Part shown: piece after piece, positions 4,470-12,168 of the stretch
Numbering within the stretch: the stretch's first letter is position 1
Layout: each line of letters starts with the position of its first letter
Source of the DNA: Nevskiales bacterium
GTDB lineage: Bacteria; Pseudomonadota; Gammaproteobacteria; Nevskiales; Nevskiaceae
Assembly (NCBI GenBank): GCA_022616655.1
Contig: JAKEEJ010000127.1
Location: forward strand, 1 to 12,909
Reading direction: 5' to 3'
Length of the DNA: 12,909 nucleotides
Notes under the pieces: generated by a model
What the model was told of the DNA's origin: nothing
The model's input: the letters and a program-made list of their open reading frames with translations, nothing else
Databases searched by the model: none
Translations under genes and position numbers: made by a program

Positions 4470-6629
4470 GTGGCGGGAACCGCCGCTGCAGCGGCAGCCG
4501 CGTTCGAGTATCCCCCGAGTCCGCGCGGTACGGTGGTGGACGATTACCACGGCACGAAAGTGGCGGACCCCTACCGCTGGCTGGAAGAAACCGATTCCAG
4601 CGAGACGGTCAACTGGGTCAAGGCGCAGAACCGGCTGACGTTTTCGTTTCTGGAAGACCTGCCCGACCGCGGGCCGCTGCGCCGGCGACTGACGGCGCTG
4701 TGGGATCACGAGCGCTACGGCGTTCCGCAACGCGAGGCGGGCCGGCTGTTTTTCACCCGCAACAACGGCCTGCAGAACCAGTCCGTGTTGTACGTCCAGG
4801 ATTCGGAGCAGGCGCAACCGCGCGCGCTGCTGGACCCCAACGAGCTGTCCCGTACCGGCACCGTCGCGCTGACACAATGGAAAGTCTCGCCCGACGCGCG
4901 TTATCTGGCCTACGGCCTGGCCCAGTCGGGCTCCGACTGGAACGAATTCAGGGTGCGCGAGGTGGCCAGCGGCCGTGACACCGGCGACCGGTTGACGCGC
5001 ATCAAATTTTCCAGCATCGCCTGGACCCGCGACAGCCGCGGCTTTTACTACTCCCGTTACCCGGAGCCTTCCTCGGACAACCCGACGGCCGGCCCCTTCG
5101 AAACCCTCGCCCACCAGAAACTCTATTACCACCGCCTCGGCACACCCCAGAGTGAGGACCGGCTGATTGTCGAGCGACCGGACGAACCGCACTGGGGATT
5201 TTCCGCCGAGGTGACCGACGACGGGCTGTTCTGCTTTATCACGATTGAACAGGGCACCGACCGCCGCAACCGTCTGTACTACCAGTATCTCGGCCCGAAC
5301 CCCAGAACCCCCAAAGTGGACAGCCCGGTGGCCAAACTGGTGGATGCTTTCGAGGCGTCCTACACGCGGGTGGGCAACGAAGGGCCCGTCGTGTACCTGC
5401 TGACGGACAAGAATGCGCCCAACAAACGCGTCATCGCGGTAGACCTGCGCGCTCCGGCGCCCCAGTACTGGATCACGCTGATTCCCGAAGGCCCGGACCC
5501 GATCCGGGCCGCTCTGCACGCCGGCCGGCAATTCGTGGTGGTCGCCCTGCACGACGCCAGTCACCGGCTGCGACGCTACACCCTGGACGGTCAGCCGCAA
5601 CCGGAACTGAAAATGCCAGGGCTGGGTTCCGTCACGGAAACATCCTCCGAAGGCCTTTACCTCCACGGCCAACCGGGGAGTTCGGAATTGTTCTACAGCT
5701 TCACCTCGTACCACCAGCCGCCCACCAATTATCGCTGCGACCTCGCGCGCGGGCGCTGCGCGGCGTTCCTGCCTGCCGGACAGGCAGGTCAAACTCCGGT
5801 ACTCGGTTTCAAGCCTGCCGACTACGTCACCGAACAGGTGTTCTACACCTCAAAGGATGGCACACGCATCCCCCTGTTCATCAGTCACAAAAAAGACTGG
5901 ACGCCGTCGCAGGGACCGCGGCCGACGCTGCTCTACGGATACGGCGGTTTTGAACAGGCGCTGACGCCCTCGTTTTCCGTACCCGCGCTGGCGTGGATGG
6001 AACAGGGCGGACTCTATGCCGTGGCCAACCTGCGCGGCGGCGGCGAATACGGCAGCGCCTGGCACAGCGGCGGCATCCGCGAACGCAAACAGAACGGGTT
6101 CGATGACTTCATCGCCGCGGCCGAACACCTCATCGGACGTCGCTACACCACGTCACAGCAGCTCGCGGTTCACGGCCGGTCCAACGGCGGCCTGCTGGTG
6201 GGCGCGGTCCTGAACCAGCGGCCGGAGCTGTTCGCCGCGGCGCTGCCGGCCGTGGGCGTGATGGACATGCTGCGCTTCCACACGTTCACCATCGGCTGGG
6301 CCTGGACCGACGACTATGGCTCTCCCGACAACCCGCAAGACTTCAAAACCCTGCGGGCCTATTCGCCGTATCACAACGTCAAATCCGGCACGAAGTACCC
6401 GGCGGCGCTGATCACCACCGCGGATCACGACGACCGCGTCGTGCCGGGGCATTCATTCAAATACGCCGCCGCCCTCCAGGCGGCGCAGGCGGGCGACAAG
6501 CCGGTGTTGATCCGCATCGAGACCCAGGCCGGGCACGGCGCGGGCAAACCCACCACCAAGCTGATTGAAGAATGGACCGACCAGCTGGCCTTCATTACAC
6601 ATTTCACGCGCGTCCGGTCCGCTCAATAG
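4470..6629 (+). CDS. Prolyl oligopeptidase (S9A serine peptidase)
   Basis: 719 residues from GTG 4470. It cleaves short peptides after proline. Residues about 12-430 hold the N-terminal region and seven-bladed propeller (YPPSPRGTVVDDYHG, then VADPYRWLE). The alpha/beta-hydrolase part follows, with GYGGFEQALTPSFS and NLRGGGEYG. Catalytic triad: Ser571 in GRSNGG, Asp654 in DHDDRVVP (Arg656 is the expected substrate-binding Arg), and His689 in AGHGAGKPT. Length is normal for the family. Two oddities. First, the Ala-rich N-terminus resembles the end of a signal peptide whose beginning (TTG 4449) is separated by TGA 4461-4463, so the protein as annotated lacks a complete export signal. Second, residues 434-440 (LPAGQAG) are encoded by a 21-nt palindromic insert just where the propeller returns to the catalytic domain. 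Its role with the M2 peptidase in peptide degradation is inferred. Confidence 0.95.
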   Translation: MAGTAAAAAAAFEYPPSPRGTVVDDYHGTKVADPYRWLEETDSSETVNWVKAQNRLTFSFLEDLPDRGPLRRRLTALWDHERYGVPQREAGRLFFTRNNGLQNQSVLYVQDSEQAQPRALLDPNELSRTGTVALTQWKVSPDARYLAYGLAQSGSDWNEFRVREVASGRDTGDRLTRIKFSSIAWTRDSRGFYYSRYPEPSSDNPTAGPFETLAHQKLYYHRLGTPQSEDRLIVERPDEPHWGFSAEVTDDGLFCFITIEQGTDRRNRLYYQYLGPNPRTPKVDSPVAKLVDAFEASYTRVGNEGPVVYLLTDKNAPNKRVIAVDLRAPAPQYWITLIPEGPDPIRAALHAGRQFVVVALHDASHRLRRYTLDGQPQPELKMPGLGSVTETSSEGLYLHGQPGSSELFYSFTSYHQPPTNYRCDLARGRCAAFLPAGQAGQTPVLGFKPADYVTEQVFYTSKDGTRIPLFISHKKDWTPSQGPRPTLLYGYGGFEQALTPSFSVPALAWMEQGGLYAVANLRGGGEYGSAWHSGGIRERKQNGFDDFIAAAEHLIGRRYTTSQQLAVHGRSNGGLLVGAVLNQRPELFAAALPAVGVMDMLRFHTFTIGWAWTDDYGSPDNPQDFKTLRAYSPYHNVKSGTKYPAALITTADHDDRVVPGHSFKYAAALQAAQAGDKPVLIRIETQAGHGAGKPTTKLIEEWTDQLAFITHFTRVRSAQ
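5768..5789. repeat. Palindromic insert inside the prolyl oligopeptidase gene
   Basis: Arms CCTGCCTG (5768-5775) and CAGGCAGG (5781-5788) enclose CCGGA. Removing 5769-5789 (21 nt, 7 codons) joins Phe to QTPVLGFKPADY. That restores the usual spacing seen in mammalian prolyl oligopeptidase between the Phe and the ASDY/ADY segment. The insert is therefore in frame and probably recent. Its arms match the intergenic palindrome at 4304-4322. Confidence 0.65.
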
Positions 6630-6682
6630 AACCCGTGCCAAATCCAGGAACCGCCGCGCCATACGCCGGTCTCGCCGGACCC

Positions 6683-7591
6683 ATGAACCGGATCGCGGCG
6701 AGCATCAAACCGACGCGCCTCACGCCGGAAGCATTGGCCGACACGCCGGGACCCGACCCGACCCGGCCGTGGATTCCTCAAGAATTGGTGCCGCTACACG
6801 GTTCCGCGTCCGACACGACGCTCACCCCCGCGCAACGCCTGCGCTACAACCACTATTACGCGCTGTTCGTGGCCGAACAGTTCATCTGGTTCGAACGACA
6901 GCTGGTTCTGCGACCCCTTGAGATACTTTTGCGCGGCCGTGTGCAGCCCCTGGAACTGCGTCCACTCCTGGAATCCTTTGTACACGATGAAATCGCCCAC
7001 AACGCCGCGCTGTGGGCACTGTTGCGCCGTGCGGCCCCGGCCCTCTACCCGCAGGCGCGCCACGCGCTGTTCCGCCCACCGCTCTCCGTACGCGCCTGGA
7101 TGCTGTTCGCCACGGCCTTTCCCCGCCGGCTGCCGGGCTGGGTGATGTTCATCAACGTTCTGGAGGAACACACCCTCCTGACCGGCCGCCGTTACCAGAA
7201 ATCCACGGACTGCGACCCGCTCTTTATCCGTGCGCACGTCCTGCACGCCCAGGACGAGGCGCGGCATTGCCGCATCGGCACGTTATTGTGCGACACGTGG
7301 ATCGCTCCGCTGAGGCCCCTCGCGCGGGCCGCCAGTGCCTACCTGCTGCGTACTTTGTTCCTGTCGTACTACGACACGGCCTGGGGCCACGACCGGCCGG
7401 TGGATTATCTGATCCGCGATTTTCCGGAACTCGCGCCGCGGCGCTCACACCTGATTGCGGCCGTCGTGGACGGCCGCGACCGCGCCTTCTGCCGGCACTT
7501 GTTCAGCGTCGAGAGTTCGCCCGGCACGGCACGGCTGGCCCGGCGTTATCCGATGCTGGCGCGCGCCATCGCCAGCGTCGCCGGGGCATAG
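6683..7591 (+). CDS. AurF-like non-heme di-iron oxygenase
   Basis: 302 residues from ATG 6683, all-helical ferritin-like fold expected. The ligand pattern matches AurF (p-aminobenzoate N-oxygenase): an early helix Glu (E65 in AEQFIWFE, or E71), E103..H106 in HDEIAH, E162 (or E161) in VLEEHT, then H188...E192..H195 in HAQDEARH. The last triplet has the AurF-type extra histidine four residues before the Glu, which distinguishes this family from ordinary ferritin-like di-iron proteins. AurF relatives oxidise amines to hydroxylamines, nitroso or nitro groups; the substrate here is unknown. Alternative start GTG 6635, only 5 nt after the oligopeptidase stop, would add 16 residues. Neither start has a clear SD. 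A longer ORF back to 6572 would overlap the oligopeptidase by 58 nt and is unlikely. First gene of a three-gene operon. Confidence 0.85.
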   Translation: MNRIAASIKPTRLTPEALADTPGPDPTRPWIPQELVPLHGSASDTTLTPAQRLRYNHYYALFVAEQFIWFERQLVLRPLEILLRGRVQPLELRPLLESFVHDEIAHNAALWALLRRAAPALYPQARHALFRPPLSVRAWMLFATAFPRRLPGWVMFINVLEEHTLLTGRRYQKSTDCDPLFIRAHVLHAQDEARHCRIGTLLCDTWIAPLRPLARAASAYLLRTLFLSYYDTAWGHDRPVDYLIRDFPELAPRRSHLIAAVVDGRDRAFCRHLFSVESSPGTARLARRYPMLARAIASVAGA

Positions 7592-7596
7592 GGTCC

Positions 7597-8232
7597 GTGC
7601 CGATCTTCGCAACGCGGCGTTTGTACCTCTATCGAAGCGATCTCACGGAAACCGGCTGGTACCGGCGCGCCGCGCCGCCGCCGGCTCCGGCGCTGCCGGA
7701 CGGAATCACCCGACAGTGGCTGACGCGCGAACAGTGGGAACAGACTCCCGCCGTGCTGCCCACAGCGGCGGCACGTGTGACGGAGCGTTACACGGAGGGC
7801 GGTCGTTGTCTGATTCTGCAACACGCAACGGCGGGAACCGTTTACCACCTCTGGCTTTCCACCGCGGGGGCCTGGATGGACTGGATCGGTGCGCGCATTA
7901 CGCCGCCATCCGGACACGGCCTGGTGTTCGACGTCTGGGCCCACCCCGACTGGCGCTCCGGCACCCTGCACCGTATCGGCGCCGCGCAGGCCTGCCAGAC
8001 ACTGCGGCAGCTTGGAATGCAGGGCGTAGCCGCGGGCGTCGAAGCACACGAGATACTGCCGTTTGCGCACGTGTACGCGCGCGCCGGACTGGGCTTCATC
8101 GTGCCGTATGAGGTCCGGGTGTGGCATCGCTGGATCGGATTGTCCTGGCACCGCCAGGCCTCCGCACCCCGCCAGCTGATCGAAGGCTGTGCGATGCTGA
8201 GACGCCAATACGAAAAAAACGTGCTGACATGA
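7597..8232 (+). CDS. GNAT-fold acyltransferase-like protein
   Basis: 211 residues from GTG 7597, which lies 5 nt after the oxygenase TAG in the same TAG-N5-GTGCC arrangement seen before the oxygenase's alternative start. The C-terminal half reads as a GNAT core: strand VFDVWAHPDWRSG (110-122), helix with AAQACQTLRQLG, strand VAAGVEAHE, then VYARAGLGFI, the usual last motif. The acetyl-CoA pyrophosphate loop is degenerate: WRSGT instead of the R-x-x-G-x-G/A consensus. It may therefore use another acyl donor or have a modified function. No signal peptide. The open frame extends upstream to 7012 but that part is a shadow of the oxygenase. Coupling to both neighbours suggests a shared pathway, where acyl transfer onto the oxygenase substrate or product is a reasonable but unproven idea. 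Confidence 0.75.
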   Translation: MPIFATRRLYLYRSDLTETGWYRRAAPPPAPALPDGITRQWLTREQWEQTPAVLPTAAARVTERYTEGGRCLILQHATAGTVYHLWLSTAGAWMDWIGARITPPSGHGLVFDVWAHPDWRSGTLHRIGAAQACQTLRQLGMQGVAAGVEAHEILPFAHVYARAGLGFIVPYEVRVWHRWIGLSWHRQASAPRQLIEGCAMLRRQYEKNVLT

Positions 8233-9269
8233 ACGCGCCACTGCCCGAAGTTCTGATCGCGCTGGGCGTGCCCGACGACTTGGCCGGCACGGCCGCCGCG
8301 CCGGAAGGCGAATCCCTTGCACTGCGCGGCAATACCGGCCTCAGCGCCGCGCTGATTGAAACCCTGCGCGCGCGGAAATGGCCGGTGCGCATCGTTCTGT
8401 TGCGGCCGGGCACGACGCTGAAACCTGACAAGGCCGGCCTCCTGATCAATGCCGTGTGCGAGCCGATTCTGCACCGGCGCTCGCTGCGACAGCTGGCCCA
8501 GTGGCAGCTGCACACCGGCTTGCCGGTGCTCAACCCCTGGTGGGTGATTGCCCACAGCGGGCGGCAGGCGGTCGCACGGCGACTCGCCTGGCAGGACGGC
8601 GTGCGGATCCCGCACTGCACCGTGTTCCGCCGCGGCAACGTGCCGCTGGTCGAGCACATCGCCCGACACGGTCACCGCTACCCCGTACTGCTGCGGCCGC
8701 TGGGCGCACACGGCAGTCACGGGCTGGTTCGTGTGGACGACGGTGCGGCCGCCGCGCAGCAGGAAGCCGACTTTGCCGCCGGTCACGTCACCGATTTCGT
8801 AGAGTTCAAATCACCCGACGGCCTGTACCGGAAATACCGTTTCGTCTTCGTCAACGACACGCCGTTCCGCCGCCACGTGCTGATGGACCGTGAATGGAAT
8901 CTCACCGGCCAGGCGCGTCATTACATGCGCGAGCATCTGGAATGCGTGGCTGAAGAAAAGATCTGGATGTCACAACCGGTCAAGCCAGAAACCGATCCCG
9001 TGGCACGGCGCGTACTGCACCAGTTCCGCGCTCTGCAACTGGATTTCGGCTCGGTGGACTTCGGCCTCCTGTCCGACGGGACGGTGCTGATTTTCGAGAT
9101 CAACGCCTGCGTTCAACTCACCGGCAGCATTCCCCCGAACCTTCCCTTTGACTGGTCGTACCTGGAAGCCAACAACGGCGCCATCCTGGACGCGCTGCTG
9201 GACCAGATCCGGCGCCGGGCCGCGAGGCCCCAGCCGGCTGCACCAATCCCGGGGAATCTCCGTGTGTAG
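8229..9269 (+). CDS. ATP-grasp ligase-like protein
   Basis: 346 residues. The ATG overlaps the preceding stop as ATGA (8229-8232), typical translational coupling. Residues about 1-110 look like a pre-ATP-grasp domain. An ATP-grasp core follows, with a glycine-rich loop RPLGAHGSHG (156-165), an adenine-side segment around TDFVEFKSPDG, and the Mg2+ site D277 (GSVDFG), E290 and N292 (FEINA). In many ATP-grasp enzymes a Lys precedes the loop (KP.G); here it is Arg156. ATP-grasp enzymes activate a carboxylate as acyl phosphate and join it to an amine or thiol. Substrates cannot be read from sequence. It is not an obvious match to D-Ala ligase, RimK or glutathione synthetase as I know them. Context suggests it condenses a product handled by the oxygenase and GNAT protein. 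An upstream in-frame ATG at 8121 would lie within the GNAT gene and is rejected. Confidence 0.82.
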   Translation: MNAPLPEVLIALGVPDDLAGTAAAPEGESLALRGNTGLSAALIETLRARKWPVRIVLLRPGTTLKPDKAGLLINAVCEPILHRRSLRQLAQWQLHTGLPVLNPWWVIAHSGRQAVARRLAWQDGVRIPHCTVFRRGNVPLVEHIARHGHRYPVLLRPLGAHGSHGLVRVDDGAAAAQQEADFAAGHVTDFVEFKSPDGLYRKYRFVFVNDTPFRRHVLMDREWNLTGQARHYMREHLECVAEEKIWMSQPVKPETDPVARRVLHQFRALQLDFGSVDFGLLSDGTVLIFEINACVQLTGSIPPNLPFDWSYLEANNGAILDALLDQIRRRAARPQPAAPIPGNLRV

Positions 9270-9521
9270 GAGTCGACCAGGGCAATTTTGGCTGCGGGCA
9301 AAGATGCTCACGTGTAATTTTGGCCAGGGGCAAAAATGCCGGCGGCCTCTGGACTTTCCCGAGCCCTTCCTCTCCGGAAGCGAGACCGAAACCCGTCGCT
9401 GCTGGCAGTACTCGTGTGATGCGACGGTGAAGTTCGGCGGTTTCGGATGGAGGGATCGTGCCGGATTTCCGTGCTAGATTGCTCAGCACGGTGCGGCATT
9501 CAACATGACACACATCCGCGG
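9270..9521. other. Intergenic gap between the ATP-grasp operon and fadL-like gene
   Basis: 252 nt without a convincing gene. It contains two imperfect direct repeats (9283-9339), and beyond that moderately GC-rich sequence. No clear terminator follows the ATP-grasp gene. A TAGATT at 9475-9480 could be a -10 element for the porin gene, but I find no -35 at the right distance. In-frame ATG 9447 would extend the porin upstream but would destroy its signal peptide. Confidence 0.5.
9283..9339. repeat. Pair of ~25-nt direct repeats, possible insertion-sequence end remnant
   Basis: CAATTTTGGC... at 9283-9307 and TAATTTTGGC... at 9315-9339 match at 20 of 25 positions; both end in GGGCAAA(G/A)ATGC and start 32 nt apart. 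Repeated AATTTTGG/GGGCAAA words near an element end recall the multiple terminal repeats of IS21-type elements, which bind transposase. No transposase is present, so this would be a relic. Family assignment is tentative. Confidence 0.35.
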
Positions 9522-10775
9522 ATGACAACCGAAAAAAAGCAGGTCGGGAACGTGTGGCTTGGGATTCTGATCCTCGTATGCTGCAATCCCGTGCAGGCCT
9601 CGGGCTATGCCGTGTTCACGCACGGGGCCGGCGCGCTGGGAGAAGGGCTTGCGAACACGGCGCACGGGAGCACGCCGGCGGTCATTTTTTACAACCCCGC
9701 CCTCATCAGCCGGCTGGAAGGCACGCAGGTCGAGAACGGCGTGACGTTCATAGCCCCGCTGCACGATTTTCACAGTGCGCTGGGCAGTCCCTCGGCAGGA
9801 ACGGAACACGAGGTGTTTTTCCCCGGGACGTTTTATCTGACACACCAGCACAGCGAGAAAATTTCCCTGGGTGTGGGTCTCTTCAGTCCGTTTGGACTGG
9901 GCACCGAGTGGCCCGCGGACTGGGAAGGCCGCTACATCACCACCCGCTCGGAGCTGCTGACGGTGAACCTCAATCCGGTGATCTCTTTTGAGCTCACGCC
10001 TTCCACCGCGTTTGCCGTGGGTCTGGATTTTCTGCTGGCGGAGGCCAGCCTGGAAAACAAGCTGAATTTGTCCACCCTGGCGCAGCCCGACGGTAATCAG
10101 AAGTTTTCCGGCCATGGCTTCGGCCTGGGGTTCAATCTCGGGTTCTACTCCGAATGGACACCGACGGTGGCTTTCGGCGCTTCTTACCGGAGTGAAGTCG
10201 GGATGGACATTGATGGCGACGCCGAGTTTGAGCTTCCGGATGCATCTCTGGCTTCAATATTTCCCAATACCGGCGCGAGCACCGACATTACCTTTCCCCA
10301 GCAGCTCCACGTGGCGCTGGCGTACAGCGGCATTGACCGGACGACTCTGGAAGTGGGCCTGCGCTGGGAAGACTGGTCCAGTTTCAATGAACTCAGAATC
10401 GAGCTGGAGCAGCCGGTGGCCGGCATGAGCACCTCGATTTCGCCGCGAGACTGGCACGACACACTGACACTCACCACCGGCGGCCGTTACCGGCTCAATG
10501 ACCGGGTCGCTCTACTGGCGGGTTTTGTCTGGGGCGAAGACCCCATACCCGATGAGACCTTTGATCCGACCATCACGGATTCAAATCATTACGCGCTGAC
10601 CTTCGGCACCGAGATCGGAATTCACAAGCACCGCCTGTCCCTGGCGTATTCCTTCCAGAAATGGGCCGACCGGACAAAAAACAACGAGATCGGCAGCGTG
10701 TCCGGTGCGCGTGCCAACGGGAAATACGAATCCAGCTCGCATTTTCTGGCGCTGGGCTTTACCTATGTATTCTGA
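9522..10775 (+). CDS. FadL/OMPP1/TodX-family outer-membrane channel
   Basis: 417 residues. ATG 9522 gives a Sec signal peptide (MTTEKKQ, then VWLGILILVCC, cleavage after NPVQA); the mature protein starts SGYAVFTHG. The mature N-terminus keeps the family pattern of ASG(F/Y)A, ALGEGLANTA (family: LG.A.AG.AA) and a FYNPA motif, here VIFYNPALIS. The body alternates short polar/aromatic strands consistent with a 14-stranded barrel and ends in Phe (FTYVF), the usual outer-membrane-protein C-terminal signature. Length is normal for FadL (about 420-450). Known relatives take up long-chain fatty acids or hydrophobic compounds such as toluene; the ligand here is unknown. The gene overlaps the next one by 11 nt. 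Its position behind an oxygenase/ligase operon hints at a hydrophobic cargo, but a 252-nt gap with repeats separates the two. Confidence 0.92.
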   Translation: MTTEKKQVGNVWLGILILVCCNPVQASGYAVFTHGAGALGEGLANTAHGSTPAVIFYNPALISRLEGTQVENGVTFIAPLHDFHSALGSPSAGTEHEVFFPGTFYLTHQHSEKISLGVGLFSPFGLGTEWPADWEGRYITTRSELLTVNLNPVISFELTPSTAFAVGLDFLLAEASLENKLNLSTLAQPDGNQKFSGHGFGLGFNLGFYSEWTPTVAFGASYRSEVGMDIDGDAEFELPDASLASIFPNTGASTDITFPQQLHVALAYSGIDRTTLEVGLRWEDWSSFNELRIELEQPVAGMSTSISPRDWHDTLTLTTGGRYRLNDRVALLAGFVWGEDPIPDETFDPTITDSNHYALTFGTEIGIHKHRLSLAYSFQKWADRTKNNEIGSVSGARANGKYESSSHFLALGFTYVF

Positions 10776-12168
10776 TTCACAGGGGGGTCCCTCGCCTCCC
10801 CCCTCTCGCCTCCCGCCTCCCGTTTTGTTTGAGGATCTGCCCGCCACGCCCCTGGAAGCTCTGGAAATTTCCGGCGGCCTGCGGTTTGTGCTACGGCTGG
10901 TATCCAGGGCAGCGGACATCTTCGGGTTCTGGGATCGTCCGCTGCGCAAGGCGGCCACTAACTTTGAGGACATGACGCTGCTGGACAAACTGTACTGGGC
11001 GTACAAATGCGCCCACCCGGTCCTCCATCCGGAACGCGGCGCCGACCTCGCCGCCCTGTGTGGACCAAAACCCACCATCGCATTGCCGGCCGGCTTTGAG
11101 AAAGAAAGCACGATCAGCCTGGGCGCGGTCGGGGATTTGATTCCGGCTCAGGGGCTGGAGCACTCCAAAGACATTCTGTACGAACGGGTTGCCGATCTGA
11201 TCTTTGATCGCACGATTTCCTATGCTGCCGCCGAGGCCCCGCTCACCCGGCAGAAACTGAAAAAAGAAATCATCAGCGACAAAGAAAGCCCGATTGAGTG
11301 CTGTTCCCGGGAGCAGTTCGACGCGCTGAAGGGCCACCGGGGAAAAAACTTTACGGTGATCCACACGGCCAGCAATCACATGTTCGACATGGGCACCGAG
11401 GGCGTGCAGACGACACTCGATCAATTTGAGCGCGACGGGATCATTGACGTCGGCACGAACCGCGAGCCTGCAGAATACGGCCAGGGCCGGATTCTGGAAC
11501 GCAACGGCATCAAAATCGGATTCGTCTCCGCCACGTTCGGACTGAACGGCCGGAATCCGCCGCCGGACCAGGCGTACCGGATCCACGTTGCGAAGCTGCT
11601 GCCCAAACGCGGCGCGCCGGACCTTTCCCTGCTCAAACAACAGATTGAGCACTGCCGGCAGCAGGGCACCGACGTGATCATCGCCTCCCTGCACTGGGGC
11701 CATGAATTCGAATTCTTTCCGCGCCGGCGCCAGATCGAAATTGCCCATACCCTGATTGAATGGGGCGCCGACGCGCTGATCGCCCATCACCCCCACGTAA
11801 TCCAGCCCGTGGAGTACTACCGGACGCAACGCGACCCGAAGCGAATGGCCGTCATCGCCTACTCGCTCGGCAGTCTCACCTGGTCATACACTGCGCCGCA
11901 TCTGGCCTTGAGCGTAATCCTGAACCTGTCATTCGCCAGGGGCCGGTACCGCGGCAAACCGGCGACTTTCATCGAAACCGCGTCGGCCACGCCGGTGTTT
12001 CGTTCCCACGAGTGGGACGGCAACGCGGCCGTTACCCGAATTGAAAAACTGGCCGATCACACAGGCCCACAGGAAGATGAAGCCAGGGCGCAATATCTCG
12101 CCCGCATCCGGCACTATGCGGAACTCGTGCTGGGCGACCCAATGGCGCTGGCGCCGTCAAGGAATTAG
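10765..12168 (+). CDS. CapA-like metallophosphoesterase (poly-gamma-glutamate capsule family)
   Basis: 467 residues from ATG 10765, which overlaps the end of the porin gene by 11 nt. The conserved domain begins around residue 118 with GAVGDLIP (D124), then SNHMFDMG (N204, H205, D208), LHWGHEFEF (H310, H313) and AHHPHVIQPVE (H341, H342, H344). These are the metal-ligand motifs of CapA/PGA_cap proteins. Some CapA proteins act in poly-gamma-glutamate capsule export; no capB or capC is present, so a capsule role is not supported and another phosphoesterase job is possible. No signal peptide. The first ~115 residues are unusual and start with a Pro/Ser-rich segment encoded by an imperfect heptamer repeat (10791-10822). 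The true start could instead lie beyond it (TTG 10825 or GTG 10888); none of the candidates has a good SD. Convergent with the XRE gene, 12 nt apart. Confidence 0.85.
   Translation: MYSDSQGGPSPPPSRLPPPVLFEDLPATPLEALEISGGLRFVLRLVSRAADIFGFWDRPLRKAATNFEDMTLLDKLYWAYKCAHPVLHPERGADLAALCGPKPTIALPAGFEKESTISLGAVGDLIPAQGLEHSKDILYERVADLIFDRTISYAAAEAPLTRQKLKKEIISDKESPIECCSREQFDALKGHRGKNFTVIHTASNHMFDMGTEGVQTTLDQFERDGIIDVGTNREPAEYGQGRILERNGIKIGFVSATFGLNGRNPPPDQAYRIHVAKLLPKRGAPDLSLLKQQIEHCRQQGTDVIIASLHWGHEFEFFPRRRQIEIAHTLIEWGADALIAHHPHVIQPVEYYRTQRDPKRMAVIAYSLGSLTWSYTAPHLALSVILNLSFARGRYRGKPATFIETASATPVFRSHEWDGNAAVTRIEKLADHTGPQEDEARAQYLARIRHYAELVLGDPMALAPSRN
10791..10822 (+). repeat. Imperfect heptanucleotide tandem repeat at the CapA-like gene start
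   Basis: Four units of 7 nt plus a partial one: CTCGCCT (10791), CCCCCCT (10798), CTCGCCT (10805), CCCGCCT (10812), then CCCG (10819). The strand is strongly C/T-rich. Because 7 is not a multiple of 3, any gain or loss of a unit would shift the frame relative to ATG 10765. Confidence 0.6.

Follow-up and report, generated by a model that had tools for sequence, protein, structure and literature searches.

Contig JAKEEJ010000127.1 of a Nevskiales bacterium (assembly GCA_022616655.1; the whole stretch of 12,909 nucleotides is referred to here as the window) carries a tight row of three plus-strand genes that encode, in this order, an AurF-like di-iron enzyme, a GNAT-like protein and an ATP-grasp enzyme. 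The first two genes are separated by 5 nt, and the stop codon of the second overlaps the start codon of the third in the tetranucleotide ATGA, all at the positions given in a preliminary description made from the sequence alone. The trio probably makes or modifies a nitrogen-oxidized molecule.

6635-7591, plus strand: AurF-family di-iron enzyme P0001, 318 aa from GTG 6635 or 302 aa from ATG 6683, the two candidate starts
7597-8232, plus strand: GNAT-fold protein P0002, 211 aa, belonging to no Pfam or NCBIfam family
8229-8232, plus strand: ATGA overlap of the GNAT stop and the ATP-grasp start, read from the sequence and also present at loci L002 and L003
8229-9269, plus strand: ATP-grasp enzyme P0003, 346 aa, assigned by profile matches, with R2K_3 and R2K_2 below cutoff

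The preliminary description had placed the first protein in the AurF family, and both lines of evidence agree: P0001 matches the Pfam AurF profile (PF11583) with 35.9 bits against a cutoff of 29.6, and its AlphaFold model (pLDDT 91.8) adopts a ferritin-like fold for which AurF and CmlI are the best counterparts, at 13-14% identity in the structural alignment. Nine other AurF relatives with 39-47% identity, detected among the 7,992 scored candidates sharing most words, indicate that the reading frame is real. The predicted active site consists of the following positions, numbered from GTG 6635.

6893-6895, plus strand: metal ligand E87, equivalent to AurF E101 (mapped onto the AurF chain by profile alignment; unchanged in all 13 rows)
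6986-7000, plus strand: D118-E119-x-x-H122 motif with ligands E119 and H122 and second-sphere D118 (profile alignment, conservation)
7166-7168, plus strand: metal ligand E178, equivalent to AurF E196 (profile alignment, conservation)
7244-7267, plus strand: H204-x-x-D207-E208-x-x-H211 motif with ligands H204, E208 and H211 and second-sphere D207 (profile alignment, conservation)

The profile alignment through which these ligands were mapped onto AurF is a weak match (E 0.15). All seven putative ligands (E87, E119, H122, E178, H204, E208 and H211) and D207 are kept in each of the 13 aligned rows, and D118 is present in 11 of them, with glutamate in L034 and L035. P0001 thus appears to possess the set of three histidines and four carboxylates together with the second-sphere aspartate (DExxH, HxxDExxH). 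The residues listed in the preliminary description are correct when counted from ATG 6683, although it named six of the seven ligands and omitted E87 (E71 in that numbering). A CylC-type dimetal halogenase was considered and rejected: such an enzyme needs QExxH, but the window protein and all nine other rows of alignment A3 have D118. The excerpted text of PMC12101540 assigns D at the start of the DExxH motif to the N-oxygenase form and Q (QExxH) to the halogenase form. P0001 is predicted to oxidize a nitrogen atom of its substrate.

The acyltransferase fold proposed for the second protein is likewise recovered, because comparison of the predicted structure of P0002 identifies a GNAT fold. The protein has no Pfam or NCBIfam family at E<=1 and no match among the sequences of solved structures; 21 other relatives were found among 1,114 candidates. 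It contains the following conserved loop.

7945-7983, plus strand: GNAT beta4-alpha3 loop P117-x-x-R120-x-G122-x-L124-H125-x-x-G128 (conservation over 25 rows)

The usual acyl-CoA loop of GNAT enzymes reads R/Q-x-x-G-x-G/A, and the portion R120-x-G122-x-L124-H125-x-x-G128 of P0002 is conserved across the 25 rows but has a non-canonical spacing.

For P0003, the assignment to the ATP-grasp superfamily made in the preliminary description agrees with profile similarity to solved ATP-grasp enzymes, on which the call is based (predicted folds cover the first two proteins only). The matches are led by the L-amino acid ligase BL00235 (E 0.0045); the six other listed matches, with E from 0.017 to 0.88, are all ATP-grasp enzymes. 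Membership in family 3 of the R2K clade was considered and rejected, the R2K_3 match reaching 19.2 bits against a Pfam cutoff of 26.3 and the ExGD motif being absent (E290-x-N292 in the window). Among 7,999 scored candidates there were 88 other relatives, of which 73 (P0014-P0086) are 44-57% identical to P0003. In the alignment of 76 rows, made up of the window protein and 75 relatives, two sites stand out.

8694-8696, plus strand: R156 at the position of the strand-2 ATP-binding lysine (counterpart of K in the L-amino acid ligase 3vot; arginine in all 76 rows)
9057-9104, plus strand: presumed Mg site D277...E290-x-N292 (D277 in 76 of 76 rows, E290 and N292 in 75 of 76 each)

By analogy with other ATP-grasp enzymes, D277, E290 and N292 would bind Mg. 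In typical ATP-grasps the strand-2 lysine contacts ATP, and the family with arginine in its place may have an odd nucleotide pocket. In a quick tree, the window protein groups with P0014-P0016 (SH-aLRT 97), outside a clade of 71 rows that contains both copies from Solirubrobacteraceae. A scan of all genome contigs with two peptide patterns yielded two ATP-grasp loci, both in one Solirubrobacteraceae metagenome-assembled genome. Five plasmid records match P0003 with 24-31% identity, covering 41-50% of the protein, and the annotations of two of these regions mention neither a GNAT nor a di-iron enzyme. The AurF protein had no match among plasmid records, and the viral contigs scanned with the ATP-grasp, GNAT and AurF alignments contained no relative.

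Tentatively, and with a confidence that falls a little short of an even chance, we favor the interpretation of the trio as a compact biosynthetic unit independent of nonribosomal peptide synthetases (NRPS), combining amide formation by the ATP-grasp enzyme, acylation by the GNAT protein and AurF-type N-oxidation. The ATP-grasp enzyme would activate a carboxylate with ATP and couple it to an amine, yielding an amide; the GNAT protein would add an acyl (or aminoacyl) group; and the AurF-family enzyme, with O2 at its di-iron site, would oxidize the nitrogen of the substrate or product. The most plausible product group would be an N-hydroxy amide (hydroxamate) or a further N-oxidized group. Starting from what is observed, that is, family membership, the folds predicted for P0001 and P0002, the conserved ligands, the tight packing and the recurrence of each adjacent pair, we infer that the three enzymes act on one molecule, in this order of steps, with nitrogen and not carbon as the oxidized atom and a small molecule as the product. 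By analogy, the ATP-grasp enzyme may stand in place of an NRPS, none of which was found by a Pfam scan among the 10 open reading frames (ORFs) of the window, a single 12.9-kb contig, the rest of the genome not having been searched for NRPS. If the enzymes act together, this would be about the smallest conceivable N-oxygenase pathway, one that could be reconstituted from three purified proteins, and if true it would extend AurF-type chemistry beyond the contexts of polyketide synthases (PKS) and NRPS. It also offers a handle on a GNAT family without a Pfam or NCBIfam model and on the ATP-grasp family, represented by 76 aligned sequences, that has arginine in place of the strand-2 lysine.

The co-occurrence of the three families beyond this genome, which the preliminary description had made a test of its proposal, holds in part: both adjacent pairs recur, but none of the other genomes sampled yielded the exact trio. 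Searches with the AurF profile covered 274, 398, 376, 117 and 1 genomes (partly overlapping samples), those with the GNAT profile 299 and 17, and those with the ATP-grasp 61, 6 and 399; the GNAT and ATP-grasp searches, being confined to sampled genomes, covered the window's own class in part. A strong match to the window GNAT family, with its context, was obtained in five genomes (the window's own, G170, G286, G1028 and G332). AurF lies directly upstream of the GNAT gene in four of the five, ATP-grasp directly downstream in two, and both in one. The gaps between AurF and GNAT are 5 nt in the window, 13 in L032, 9 in L033 and 9 in L045, taking as GNAT starts ATG 8527 (L032), GTG 7429 (L033) and GTG 7953 (L045). 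The three non-window genomes with the AurF-GNAT pair belong to one genus of another order of the window's class, so that the pair rests on two lineages. In the Solirubrobacteraceae genome G332 (L002), GNAT and ATP-grasp are paired through an identical ATGA overlap but AurF is absent. The GNAT gene looks like a hub whose partners can be exchanged. In addition, two pairs of GNAT and ATP-grasp relatives share the size of their longest contig (8817 and 15186), which is suggestive of linkage but no proof of it; with the exception of the window, none of the AurF relatives in the list of nine shares such a size with the GNAT or ATP-grasp lists.

Some further details of these loci deserve mention. The GNAT gene of G1028 (L045, 7953-8549) matches in two frames next to an open AurF gene and looks broken or mis-sequenced. 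In L002 (6373-9029), the GNAT-ATP-grasp pair is preceded at a distance of 12 nt by a gene for a ROK-family kinase, and a second locus of G332 (L003, 6616-9029) shows the row BKACE, GNAT, ATP-grasp with an ATGA overlap, its GNAT being recognized by Pfam and belonging to another subfamily.

The chief rival explanation, which we consider unlikely, is that AurF-GNAT and GNAT-ATP-grasp are independent units that share the GNAT, which would have a general job while the flanking enzymes serve in separate steps or pathways, the union in the window being incidental. The counts in the five genomes are in its favor, and so are the relationships of the GNAT proteins: the window protein is 52% identical to that of L002 and mostly 49-57% identical to the other relatives on its side of the tree (35% to P0123, which sits on a long branch), compared with 43% and 37% to the AurF-paired proteins of L032 and L033. 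In the GNAT tree a branch with 100/100 support separates the latter two from the window row, which falls in no well-supported group. Against this rival, the window GNAT gene is closely spaced from both of its neighbors, and GC content is similar in all three genes (0.660-0.667).

Several observations weigh against a joint three-enzyme pathway. No exact trio was present outside the window genome in the sampled genomes, although further trios may exist on the metagenome contigs that carry the closest ATP-grasp relatives (P0014-P0017), which lay outside this sample. The window ATP-grasp had no match in the three AurF-GNAT genomes, and G332 gave none to the AurF profile, an empty result that alone is little evidence; each pair can thus do without the remaining partner in some genomes. 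For seven weaker ATP-grasp relatives (28-34% identity) from the window's family and order, the loci of 3.4-3.7 kb lacked AurF and GNAT genes of the trio's families. No carrier protein, exporter or regulator is encoded inside the trio. Finally, acyl transfer by P0002 is unproven given its non-standard loop, as is ATP-grasp activity of P0003 given the invariant R156 that replaces the lysine, superfamily membership being unaffected.

A control with other AurF relatives, by contrast, counts in favor of the joint pathway. In the 274-genome sample there were 19 further AurF-family matches (E 1e-15 to 6e-4), and the 12 loci of the class that were checked for partners (L017-L022, L024-L027, L030 and L031) contained no GNAT or ATP-grasp match by tblastn within flanks of ~1.5 kb, shorter at contig ends (L017, L031); the comparison did not extend to L023, L028 and L029 or to four matches for which no locus was available. 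Among 19 flanking ORFs at these loci, hand-picked from a mechanically made gene list, none had a GNAT or ATP-grasp Pfam match, and 4 of the 19 matched no family. The tblastn comparison is the relevant part of this control because Pfam would miss a GNAT of the window type, whereas tblastn would miss remote GNATs. Within these limits, the pairing of AurF with GNAT or ATP-grasp is not general among the AurF relatives compared by sequence. Two weak GNAT matches were seen in the 299-genome sample, one of which (L046) has no AurF or ATP-grasp relative, and weak ATP-grasp matches were seen in three genomes of the 399-genome sample. Within the class, further AurF-family genes have DUF945 (L021, L022), DUF1820 (L024, L027) or a gene for an NAD-epimerase (L026, L030) nearby, neighbors that suggest a separate AurF branch.

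In all three non-window AurF-GNAT genomes, a gene for an AMP-binding, PaaK-like ligase lies just downstream of the GNAT gene, in convergent orientation.

L032, 9175-10614, minus strand: AMP-binding ligase
L033, 5330-6775, plus strand: AMP-binding ligase
L045, 8572-10056, minus strand: AMP-binding ligase

The AMP-binding assignment is above the Pfam cutoff in L032 and L033, and the similarity to PaaK-type and related NCBIfam models in L032 and L045 is below all cutoffs. Directly upstream of AurF, the same genomes carry a GT4 glycosyltransferase gene, recognized by Pfam in L045 and L033 and in L032 only by its position and similar protein ends. The conservation of the ligase and GT4 neighbors is weak evidence, given that the three genomes are from one genus. 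Two more distant AurF relatives (L034, L035), from two other families of the class, share a different gene order. In L034 (306-10307), Pfam matches and protein sizes give a GH3-type amide synthetase, a protein of ~369 aa, an NQR2/RnfD-FG-GAP-ASPIC protein, the AurF-like enzyme, a small protein and a fatty acid desaturase; the order in L035 (3-9431) corresponds by protein ends, the desaturase being named for L034 only. This gene order may represent a cluster not described before, possibly one with a lipid product. No GNAT is apparent in it, the candidate ORFs (L034 1907-3013, L035 665-1768) matching no Pfam family and the latter having four weak, uninformative matches in the PDB.

Across these lineages, AurF-type enzymes are accompanied by different carboxylate-activating enzymes, which is circumstantial but fits a theme of acid activation with N-oxidation. 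A bolder form of the NRPS-free interpretation, possible but doubtful, is that of a minimal N-oxygenase pathway built around the GNAT unknown to Pfam, whose carboxylate-activating partner would be exchangeable between lineages (ATP-grasp in the window and Solirubrobacteraceae, an AMP-forming ligase next to AurF-GNAT in the other genus) and whose three enzymes would produce small N-hydroxy or nitroso/nitro acyl-amides of a new class.

The same neighbors can be read differently. If the substrate were a macromolecule (protein, envelope glycan or lipid), the ATP-grasp enzyme would attach a tag consisting of an amino acid or a peptide, which the GNAT would cap and the di-iron enzyme would oxidize, a scenario that we rate as improbable, somewhat below that of independent units. 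The GT4 gene upstream of AurF and the GH3 and desaturase genes next to the more distant AurF branch point in this direction, as does the weak similarity of P0003 to R2K ATP-grasps, for which the excerpted portion of PMC4431377 proposes peptide tagging of proteins and operons with GNATs. Those R2K.3 operons resemble the trio in combining GNAT and ATP-grasp, with ligation followed by acyl capping as the proposed sequence of steps, but differ in the features that excluded P0003 from that family (the sub-cutoff match and ExN in place of ExGD), and the text of PMC4431377 does not contain the word AurF. Moreover, no envelope-gene partner is common to the lineages seen.

In comparison with known systems, the partners of P0001 set the trio of the favored biosynthetic reading apart, because the AurF/CmlI arylamine N-oxygenases (PF11583) are accompanied by PKS/NRPS genes and not by GNAT and ATP-grasp. 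The ham, pvf and mgo clusters (fragin, valdiazen, leudiazen) resemble the trio in being compact pathways with an AurF-type N-oxygenase, but coupling is carried out there by an NRPS, of which none is seen in the window. The nearest precedent for the proposed logic appears to be the formation of the hydroxamates matlystatin and actinonin, for which the portion of PMC5719088 consulted proposes AsnB-like, ATP-dependent amidation followed by an AurF homolog. Like the trio, MatA/MatC, ActI/ActJ and, for trichostatin, TsnB7/TsnB9 combine an ATP-dependent amide enzyme with an AurF homolog, there leading to a hydroxamate; however, the amide enzyme is AsnB-like and not an ATP-grasp, the clusters are larger, and no GNAT is named in that portion of the paper. 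The dob pathway for diazo compounds also includes an AurF-like protein (Dob3) and a GNAT (DobB), but in the excerpt of PMC12154687 it further comprises a lysine N-oxygenase, a MetRS-cupin protein, a PKS and a carrier protein, all of them absent from the window, and Dob3, with 47% identity to CmlI, is far closer to that enzyme than P0001 is. Operons that combine a di-iron oxygenase with ATP-grasp ligases, with NRPS instead in sister operons, are described in the available part of PMC2922099 and set a precedent of logic for the replacement of NRPS by ATP-grasp in another class of di-iron enzymes; their oxygenase belongs to the heme-oxygenase superfamily, is fused to a cupin and is not AurF-type, its partner is a Rieske protein, and no GNAT is named there.

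An alternative from nitrogen metabolism, in which the di-iron enzyme would oxidize an amide or hydroxylamine in the manner of the Dirammox enzyme DnfA while the other two genes handle the amide donor, is in our view very improbable. DnfA is itself AurF-type, has the same pattern of seven ligands and converts hydroxylamine to N2 according to the excerpt of PMC9478400, but counterparts of DnfB (ferredoxin-reductase-like) and DnfC (glutamine amidotransferase), so named by annotation, are both absent from the trio. Other papers on AurF-type enzymes, concerned with hydroxamates (PMC10616846), Dirammox (PMC9136411, PMC11160463) and halogenases (PMC8406957), do not describe the trio in the parts compared. 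Searches of open-license papers for AurF together with ATP-grasp, GNAT or acetyltransferase returned only PMC2922099 or nothing, and did not contradict the impression of the preliminary description that no known cluster has exactly these three genes.

Upstream of the trio, Pfam identifies genes for a peptidase M2, a patatin/NTE protein and an S9 prolyl oligopeptidase. The GTG 6635 start of the AurF-like gene would follow the stop codon of the S9 peptidase gene (6629) by 5 nt, which leaves more than one possible beginning for a transcription unit, and promoter and terminator scans of 6200-9600 produced nothing beyond chance. The source genome is incomplete (1.26 Mb, 76% complete). The contig, with a GC content of 0.637, fits it in composition: its tetranucleotide correlation with the rest of its own genome is 0.957, within the range of 0.946-0.981 for five genome contigs of 8-19 kb (the reference consisted of 20 other contigs, 19 of them scored, L084 being masked and without a value). 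Downstream, Pfam identifies genes for a FadL-type outer-membrane protein and a CapA-type protein. The other genome of this genus (79% complete) gave no match to the FadL gene and hence offers no insertion site for comparison. These two genes (9522-12168) have GC contents of 0.592 and 0.609 and a GC content at third codon positions of 0.73, below the other window genes measured.

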